From the NCBI GenBank assembly GCA_035533755.1, contig DATLTC010000026.1:1-64000 (forward strand): a DNA stretch of 64,000 nucleotides, in the 5' to 3' direction. The notes under the pieces are model-generated. The model saw nothing but the letters and a program-made list of their open reading frames with translations. It was not told where the DNA came from and ran no database searches. Source of the DNA: Gemmatimonadaceae bacterium (GTDB lineage Bacteria; Gemmatimonadota; Gemmatimonadetes; Gemmatimonadales; Gemmatimonadaceae). Positions within the stretch are counted from its first letter, which is position 1. Each line of letters begins with the position of its first letter. Below are positions 19,673 to 54,037 of the stretch, piece after piece. Both the position numbers and the translations under genes were made by a program.

Positions 19673-19704
19673 CAGCACGCCGGGGCTCGGCCCCGGCGGT
19701 CCGG

Positions 19705-52352: not shown

Positions 52353-52408
52353 ATGCCCCGCCCGACCTGAGGTCGAGCGGGGCATTGGACGGGCCGCCGA
52401 GGCGGCCC
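52353..52408. terminator. Two adjacent hairpins between convergent genes
   Basis: First hairpin 52353-52385: ATGCCCCGC with GCGGGGCAT plus an inner CGACC/GGTCG stem. Second 52391-52408: GGGCCGCC with GGCGGCCC, 2-base loop. They lie between the kinase stop (52301) and the minus-strand cold-shock gene stop (52421) and probably end transcription from both sides, though neither has a clear U-tract. Confidence 0.6.
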
Positions 52409-52420
52409 AACGCAGCCGTG

Positions 52421-52633
52421 TTAGTTGCCGAGCTTGGTGACGTTCTCAGCCGCCGGGCCCTTCTGGCCCTGCACGACGTCGAACTCAACCTTCTCGCCTT
52501 CGGCCAGCGACTTGAAGCCGCCGCCCTGGATGGCCGAATGATGCACGAAGCAATCCTTCTGGCCGTCCGCGGGAGTGATGAAACCGAAGCCCTTGGCGTC
52601 GTTGAACCACTTGACAGTGCCGGTCGTACGCAT
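52421..52633 (-). CDS. Cold-shock protein (CspA family)
   Basis: 70 residues, the normal length. A single OB-fold with RNP1 K-G-F-G-F-I and RNP2 [16 protein letters not shown] starts the fold. It binds single-stranded RNA/DNA and keeps transcripts unfolded. The predicted promoter is about 200 bp upstream and the leader contains an intrinsic terminator (52748-52778), so regulation in the leader is likely. The Cys in place of Phe/other at RNP2 is a minor variant. Confidence 0.97.
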
Positions 52634-52747
52634 GGTGGAACCCCTAAATGTGTGGTGTGTCGGAGTCCGGTGATGCCGTACTGGCCGACGTACCTGGTGT
52701 GTTCGTGAATGACGCCATCACGATGGCCTCCCGAAGGAGCTCCCTGA

Positions 52748-52778
52748 AGAAAAAAGGACCCGCATGCTGCCGGGTCCT
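52748..52778 (-). terminator. Intrinsic terminator inside the cold-shock gene leader
   Basis: On the minus strand: stem AGGACCCG (52778-52771) with CGGGTCCT (52762-52755), 8-base loop, then six U and CUUC. It lies between the csp promoter (52830-52858) and the csp start (52633). It should produce a ~74-nt terminated RNA unless read through, so it may be an attenuator, or the end of a separate small RNA. Confidence 0.7.
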
Positions 52779-52829
52779 CGTCCGCCCCAGGGATGTCCGA
52801 CGCCGGACGGCGCCGTTACTGCATCCTCA

Positions 52830-52858
52830 ATGATAGCATACTTCGCGCCGCTGCACAA
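52830..52858 (-). promoter_or_regulatory. Sigma-70-like promoter for the cold-shock leader
   Basis: On the minus strand TTGTGC (52858-52853), 17-bp spacer, TATCAT (52835-52830). Predicted start near 52823; leader to the csp ATG about 190 nt. The stretch 52634-52987 holds this promoter, the leader with its terminator, a small hairpin CCATCGTGATGG (52716-52727) and, above 52860, only G-rich sequence with no recognisable gene. Confidence 0.7.
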
Positions 52859-52987: not shown

Positions 52988-54037
52988 ATGGCTCCGCCGC
53001 GCGCCCCCTCGATGCCGCCGGCTTCACACACGGCCGGAGCGGTGCCCAGCCCCACGGCACCGGGCCGCGCGAGGACCGTGCTCGGCCGGTTCCTGCGCGT
53101 CGCGGTCTCGTTGGCCACCATCGTGCTCCTGGTGGTGGCCGCCCGCCATGTGCAGTGGGGAGTCACCTGGCGGGAGATCCGAACGGCGTCGCCGCAACTG
53201 CTCGTCGCGGCCCTCGTCGTGAACCTCGTCTCGCTGGCGCTCAAGGGCGTGCGGTGGTGGCTGTTCCTGCGACGCGTCGGCGCGCCATCGTTTGGGTTGG
53301 CGCTCAAAGCGACGTTCGCGGGAGCGGGGCTCAACAATGTGCTGGTGGCCAACGGAGGCGAGGCGGCGCAGGTCGTCTTCGTGGCGCGCGCGACGCACGT
53401 GAGCCACTCCAAGGTGCTCGCCACCCTCACGCTCGACCGGTTGACCGGATTCGTGGGGTACGTGTTGGTGGTGGTGCTGGGCCTCTGGGTGCTGCCGCTG
53501 CCCGGGGAGGTAGCGCGCTGGCGGCCCGAGGCCACGGCCACCCTCGCCGCCCTCGCCGCGTTGATGATCGTGCTGTATCGCATGGACATCGGCGAAGGGC
53601 TTGCCGCGACGGGCGGCCGGCGCTTCGAGAAGCTGCGCGGGCACGGCAGGACGTTCATGCACACCATCTCGCACCTGTCCACCGGGGCATCGATCGTACA
53701 AGCGCTGCTGTTGTCGGTGGGATCGTGGGTGCTGCAGATCGCGACGTTTCATCTGACGGCGGCGGCGGTGCACTTTCCCATCACCCTCACGGGGTCGGTG
53801 GCCGCGGTGATCGCGGTGAACCTGGGATTCGTGGTGCACCTGACGCCGGGGAACGTGGGCCTGTTCCAGGCGCTCTACGCCGCGGCGGCCGTCGCGTTCG
53901 GCTTCAATCAGAGCGCCGCGATCGCGGTGGCCATCCTCATCCAGGCGCAGCAGATCCTGCCGGTGACGGTGATCGGGATCGCGTTGGCGCCGGAATTCAT
54001 CTTCAAGCGGCACCGACCGCTCGACGCCGCCCTATGA
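52988..54037 (+). CDS. Lysylphosphatidylglycerol synthase-type flippase-like membrane protein (UPF0104)
   Basis: 349 residues with about eight spans. The family blocks N-L-V-S-L-A-L-K-G-V-R-W-W-L-F-L, N-N-V-L-V-A-N-G-G-E-A-A-Q and V-V-H-L-T-P-G-N-V-G-L-F-Q-A-L-Y are seen. It matches the membrane part of MprF/AglD/YbhN proteins and lacks the soluble synthase domain, so it may move or modify lipids. Its stop codon is directly adjacent to that of the EAL gene (convergent; the end coordinates overlap by 6 bp). Confidence 0.85.
   Translation: MAPPRAPSMPPASHTAGAVPSPTAPGRARTVLGRFLRVAVSLATIVLLVVAARHVQWGVTWREIRTASPQLLVAALVVNLVSLALKGVRWWLFLRRVGAPSFGLALKATFAGAGLNNVLVANGGEAAQVVFVARATHVSHSKVLATLTLDRLTGFVGYVLVVVLGLWVLPLPGEVARWRPEATATLAALAALMIVLYRMDIGEGLAATGGRRFEKLRGHGRTFMHTISHLSTGASIVQALLLSVGSWVLQIATFHLTAAAVHFPITLTGSVAAVIAVNLGFVVHLTPGNVGLFQALYAAAAVAFGFNQSAAIAVAILIQAQQILPVTVIGIALAPEFIFKRHRPLDAAL

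Follow-up and report, generated by a model that had tools for sequence, protein, structure and literature searches.

A conserved promoter and intrinsic terminator ahead of a putative translation switch in the csp leader of Gemmatimonadota

Background

Is the transcription of a cold-shock gene cut short within its own leader? The question is raised by a csp gene located in a stretch of 64,000 nt, referred to as the window, which is contig C26 of a 3.2-Mb genome from the Gemmatimonadota. In a preliminary description of this DNA, a promoter giving a leader of about 190 nt and a terminator with six U residues within that leader were noted. Attenuation or a separate small RNA of about 74 nt was proposed, in contrast to cspA leaders acting on translation. 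In E. coli, csp leaders switch translation and Csp proteins melt terminators. To our knowledge, an intrinsic terminator has not been described in the leader of any csp gene. A literature search also revealed no such case in full text, which is weak evidence, since subscription journals were mostly outside its coverage.

Results and discussion

Promoter and terminator in the csp leader

The elements of the leader are listed in Table 1. Downstream of csp, a convergent gene for a Ser/Thr kinase-TPR protein is found and upstream a divergent LPG_synthase_TM gene (52988-54037, plus strand), but no co-directional partner. With this arrangement of neighbours, the terminator is not attributable to another co-directional gene.

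The promoter and the leader, extending from the predicted start near 52823 to the csp start at 52633, were located as first described. The -35 region is a poor match, and a simple promoter scanner gives no call there. Likewise, the terminator is present where it had been placed: the predicted start lies about 44 nt ahead of its hairpin, and 117 nt remain from the terminator to the csp ATG; an RNA terminated at this site would be about 74 nt long. The hairpin, with six G-C pairs among its 8 bp and a predicted energy of -16.5 kcal/mol including adjoining pairs, is G+C-rich and directly followed by the U-tract, as expected for a candidate intrinsic terminator. A terminator scanner detected one site between 52000 and 53500, but shuffled versions of the same region yielded 0.9 sites, so that the single sequence alone is little proof. 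A stricter detector found three sites in the whole window on both strands, at 19701 (plus), 25496 (minus) and 52754 (minus). Terminators consisting of hairpin and U-tract are therefore very rare in the window, which suggests that other modes of ending transcription dominate.

Table 1 Features of the csp locus in the window
Feature	Positions	Strand	Description	Basis
csp promoter	52830-52858	-	-35 TTGTGC 52858-52853; 17-nt spacer; -10 TATCAT 52835-52830; predicted start ~52823	read directly
5' segment of leader	52779-52823	-	~44 nt ahead of terminator; CCAG and GUUCC motifs enriched	sequence variable in relatives
Intrinsic terminator (predicted)	52750-52778	-	8-bp hairpin AGGACCCG(GCAGCAUG)CGGGUCCU, 8-nt loop, 52778-52755; U6 52755-52750	sequence, scanner, conservation
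Hairpin P2	52728-52739	-	small hairpin, CUCC(UUCG)GGAG	sequence; region variable in relatives
H-type pseudoknot (predicted)	52703-52727	-	S1 GCCA 52727-52724/UGGC 52717-52714; S2 UCGUGA 52723-52718/UCACGA 52708-52703; loop 3 of 5 nt	descriptor, covariation
Hairpin P4 (proposed ON state)	52659-52689	-	GUCGG 52689-52685/CCGAC 52663-52659; inner CGG 52678-52676/CCG 52670-52668	part of model R1
Anti-start element	52673-52681	-	GUACGGCAU; can pair with AUGCGUAC of csp (52633-52626), leaving one G bulged	minimum-free-energy fold, duplex energy
Anti-Shine-Dalgarno element	52662-52666	-	ACUCC within P4	predicted SD pairing
Shine-Dalgarno (SD) sequence	52641-52645	-	AGGGG (AGGAGU in most relatives)	sequence; leader alignment
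csp	52421-52633	-	cold-shock protein, 70 aa; first 15 bases join the proposed OFF pairing	Pfam CSD PF00313, 110.2 bits, E 4.3e-32

Conservation of the terminator and its promoter

Upstream regions of csp genes from across the Gemmatimonadota yielded 157 distinct leaders. The counts given here are not independent events, since the genomes are related and several leaders were retrieved with the model described below or with a query from the window csp. A terminator was scored if a hairpin of less than -12 kcal/mol followed by a U-tract was located 20 to 200 nt upstream of the ATG. By this criterion, 81 of the 157 leaders contain a terminator, at a median distance of 125 nt from the ATG, compared with 0.8 in dinucleotide shuffles; about half of the leaders are without one. 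The background density in DNA flanking the csp loci was 0.045 terminators per strand-kb, corresponding to about 0.008 expected per leader, and among csp leaders of other phyla terminators were detected in four out of 57. Conservation upstream of csp orthologues had been named as a check on the first observation, and it is borne out by these numbers.

The hairpins themselves are also maintained. Their positions are paired in 86-100% of the leaders (94-98% for the first six), each with a variety of pair types. There is covariation between the arms, and the U-tract is preserved, usually as a run of four to seven. In seven leaders (L116, L010, L032, L120, L144, L038, L161) the terminator lies less than 80 nt from the ATG. 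Since these leaders mostly lack the pseudoknot and P4 described below, the terminator is retained independently, adjoining the ribosome site.

A different arrangement is found in L153, L155, L157, L132, L169 and L044, which belong to another class of csp paralogues, mostly encoding VHYS proteins. Their leaders are short and lack a terminator; ahead of the SD sequence, the hairpin is of a variant form, UUGUCGGGGUACGG..UUCCGCUCCCUAGACAA. A tandem csp pair with identical leader elements is present in L218:403-1058 (G146:C53).

Promoters were searched with the pattern TTGnnn-N15-18-TAnnnT at most 110 nt upstream of the hairpin. Such a promoter precedes the hairpin in 62 of the 81 terminator-bearing leaders (2.3 in shuffles, maximum 7), and its position relative to the terminator is conserved between the window and its relatives; the estimated start is a median of 42 nt ahead of the hairpin. 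Between terminator and ATG, a second promoter was found in only one of the 81 leaders, which is the chance level (1.3). The case considered as a refutation in the preliminary description, transcription of csp from a second promoter between 52748 and 52634 combined with an unconserved hairpin, is thus argued against. Because a conserved terminator follows a conserved promoter and no second promoter intervenes, premature termination, resulting in attenuation and/or an RNA of about 74 nt, would be the natural reading of these leaders. It is well supported by the sequence comparisons, and to this extent the original proposal is upheld.

Alternative explanations for the hairpin

The transcript bounded by promoter and terminator has a fitting size for a small RNA, and it could be a stand-alone RNA of about 74 nt acting in trans, with csp being expressed by incidental read-through. 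Short motifs in the 30 nt ahead of the hairpin would agree with this: among the 81 terminator-bearing leaders, CCAG is present in 28 (9.5 after shuffling) and GUUCC in 14 (3.6). There is also a sequence bias in the terminator arms: 28 hairpins have GGACC in their 5' arm, none in their 3' arm. Apart from these short motifs, however, the 5' segment varies in sequence, its conservation being low, and has little structure (mean z -0.46). No copies of it were detected elsewhere in the genome, where a leader query matched only itself and, with its 3' part, one other csp leader, and the terminators studied were all found via csp genes. A trans-acting RNA of this kind is considered unlikely.

The U-tracts bear on another explanation, in which the hairpin acts as a pause site or as a stabilizing structure at the RNA 5' end, all transcripts read through, and the translation switch alone matters. 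In 18 of the 81 hairpins the uninterrupted U-run that follows comprises just zero to three residues. Moreover, high csp expression is needed at some point, and control of E. coli cspA is mainly exerted on translation and decay. On the other hand, 63 of the 81 hairpins are directly followed by four to eight U residues, in G+C-rich genomes with few such sites, and a U-tract would be superfluous for a stabilizing hairpin. We assign a rather small probability to this possibility.

Intergenic regions are the usual location of terminators, and the hairpin could serve transcription from upstream, the csp promoter being located behind it. This is very improbable, since the upstream neighbour is divergent, the promoter lies ahead of the terminator in 62 leaders and after it in one, as expected by chance, and the region behind the terminator is a conserved leader. 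A chance hairpin in a single genome, conceivable from the 0.9 sites the scanner expects in a single region, is refuted by the conservation across the phylum (81 of 157 against 0.8). As judged from the leader sequences, the observation made in the window is confirmed as genuine and beyond chance.

Search for an anti-terminator

Premature termination being the preferred reading, the means by which the terminator might be controlled were of interest. The preliminary description had suggested folding the leader for a mutually exclusive anti-terminator, but this expectation was disappointed. In the 81 leaders, the 5' segment paired with the terminator arm no better than in shuffles and, if anything, more weakly, with 27 leaders exceeding their own shuffle mean. 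Anti-terminators drawn by eye, CCAG with CUGG and GUUCC with GGGGC, were rejected, their energies being no better than those of shuffles. A stem enclosing terminator and U-tract is striking in the genus of the window, but it is not general (own -8.0 versus swapped -7.5, p 0.32). A leader peptide starting at the ATG at 52719 was also discarded; this ATG falls within the pseudoknot, and most relatives have another sequence in its place (GUGAGGGC). As no anti-terminator beyond chance was detected in the 5' segment, control of read-through would be passive or exerted in trans.

Structures downstream of the terminator

In relatives, the interval between terminator and pseudoknot, which contains P2 in the window, has slightly more structure than shuffled sequence (mean z -0.87). 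Further downstream, pseudoknot and P4 are visible in an alignment of 40 leaders. A pseudoknot descriptor matched 100 of the 157 leaders, compared with 12-23 in shuffles, and changes on both sides were observed at five of the six S2 pairs. S1, which was not a pair within the covariance model, was tested by swapping loops between leaders: at least 3 bp are formed in 74 of 87 leaders, but in 58.5 with swapped loops (maximum 65 in 500 trials), and at least 4 bp in 40 leaders versus 23.8 in the same control. While S1 is GCCA/UGGC in the window, GCCC/GGGC is found in most relatives. Two interleaved helices supported by covariation are thus present, as predicted for an H-type pseudoknot.

The covariance model of the downstream part, R1, matches the window at 52631-52731 with 68.7 bits. 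Its four helices are paired in 79-97% of 91 distinct model-aligned sequences, and in 15 of the 21 pairs both partners vary; none of 500 shuffles and none of the slid versions scored as high. R1 was detected in 168 of 298 Gemmatimonadota genomes. All 41 matches inspected precede csp, one of them a csp pseudogene, and none is found in the context of another gene. The pseudogene, L203 (G001:C239:16381-16484), has suffered a big internal deletion leaving 26 aa, and terminator, pseudoknot and P4 are all retained. No significant match was obtained in 63 csp loci of other phyla. A weak one is located exactly ahead of csp in the Planctomycetota MAG DHS20C15 (L049:1412-1501; 17.1 bits, E 0.11), where a pseudoknot can be drawn with other letters (ACC/GGU, CGCGGA/UCCGCG); transfer or a deeper origin is possible. 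Among Rfam families, no match to the leader was found. RF01766 gave 57.1 bits for 52400-52771 including csp, below its gathering cut-off of 78, and no match without the coding sequence. The leader is a structured RNA family without an Rfam entry.

In P4, seven of eight pairs of the outer helix show changes on both sides (91 distinct sequences). If the csp start is included in minimum-free-energy folding, a longer structure displaces P4 from 5 to 50 C. ACUCC then pairs with the SD sequence, GUACGGCAU with AUGCGUAC, and GUCGG (52689-52685) with CCGGC of csp (52623-52619), which is the proposed OFF state. With the csp start included, the mean pairing probability of ACUCC with GGAG of the SD sequence was about 0.8 in 49 relatives at all temperatures. 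The anti-start duplex has an energy of -15.6 kcal/mol compared with -11.2 for synonymous csp recodings, the own sequence being stronger in 89 of 97 cases. Within P4 the letters GUA and CAU are unpaired, and their conservation requires a second partner, as in the OFF pairing, or another reason. The pair between codon 2 and P4 is retained in 62 of 63 aligned leaders. A change of A to G in P4 is linked to CGU to CGC in codon 2 (72/4 versus 5/6, Fisher p 1.5e-4), a value uncorrected for relatedness and derived from partly kin sequences. In the genes nearby, only seven of 145 Arg codons are CGU; part of the conservation of codon 2 could stem from a bias toward CGU in genes of high expression. According to sequence and folding model, P4 and the SD/AUG pairing may constitute a bistable translation switch, with a logic like that of cspA in an unrelated sequence. 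Since the leader holds this putative switch and the pseudoknot in addition to the terminator, the contrast to cspA leaders acting on translation, implied in the preliminary description, is not supported.

Proposed mechanism

Conserved in the leader sequences are the promoter, the terminator, the pseudoknot, P4, and the anti-start pairing. It appears fairly probable that they form a csp-specific leader of the Gemmatimonadota with control at two levels, first by attenuation and then by a translation switch. At the first level, transcription would start about 190 nt upstream of csp, the terminator would end part of the transcripts in vivo after about 74 nt, and csp mRNA would be produced by read-through only. 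Read-through would most likely be set by hairpin and U-tract and be modulated in trans, Csp itself being the likeliest candidate. As Csp belongs to a family altering intrinsic termination, self-control is plausible. The sign of such a feedback would differ depending on the precedent, termination being weakened in E. coli and apparently favoured in B. subtilis. Cold stabilizes the terminator hairpin, which alone would lower csp expression in the cold, and a factor acting in trans must therefore be assumed for cold induction.

At the second level, the read-through mRNA would contain the pseudoknot, presumably with a regulatory role, followed by P4. In the ON state, self-folded P4 would conceal ACUCC and GUACGGCAU, leaving the ribosome site exposed; in the OFF state, the RNA would be refolded so that ACUCC pairs with the SD sequence and GUACGGCAU with the first bases of csp. 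In equilibrium folding, the predicted occlusion of the SD sequence is nearly constant from 5 to 50 C, so that a thermosensor would need kinetic control. P4 would be transcribed first, and if refolding is slowed by cold, new mRNA should stay ON, a direction of the temperature effect suggested by the E. coli cspA precedent. A more far-reaching proposal would be a phylum-wide leader of attenuator, pseudoknot, and start-codon-masking switch, in which Csp acts on its own terminator and/or pseudoknot for autoregulation and temperature is read at elongation and translation. We regard this as a tentative and rather doubtful extension.

If true, the leader would be a compact and widespread system with an attenuator potentially controlled by the csp product itself, and autoregulation of Csp by antitermination would become directly testable. 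It would also represent an RNA family absent from Rfam in the Gemmatimonadota, a phylum in which RNA regulation is almost unstudied, and the anti-start pairing would account for the retention in csp of CGU, an otherwise unusual synonymous codon, at least for the part not due to codon preference in highly expressed genes.

Comparison with known systems

At 37 C, the 5' UTR of E. coli cspA pairs with the coding region in a helix that makes up the closed form, and RNA transcribed in the cold adopts the open form (PMC9947658). The leader described here resembles this thermoregulator (RF01766) as a long csp 5' leader with a proposed exchange of open and closed forms masking ribosome site and coding start. 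It differs in not matching the RF01766 model and in having a predicted H-type pseudoknot and an intrinsic terminator. For cspB and cspG of E. coli, Rho-dependent premature termination occurs in the 5' UTR or early ORF (PMC7815308). Transcription of csp would be cut short in both cases, but here by an intrinsic hairpin with U-tract, and phylum-wide. The order of promoter, leader, terminator, and gene is shared with attenuators based on intrinsic terminators, whether controlled by riboswitches, leader peptides, or proteins. Unlike these, the csp leaders analysed here revealed no overlapping anti-terminator, no aptamer upstream of the terminator, and no conserved leader peptide. With respect to a factor in trans, E. 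coli CspD weakens intrinsic termination at sRNA terminators (PMC9765468) and CspA, CspC, and CspE of E. coli act as anti-terminators (PMC4347634), whereas CspB and CspD of B. subtilis appear to favour termination (PMC8307031). The csp product encoded in the window belongs to the same family as these E. coli anti-terminators, a family whose B. subtilis members apparently have an effect of opposite sign.
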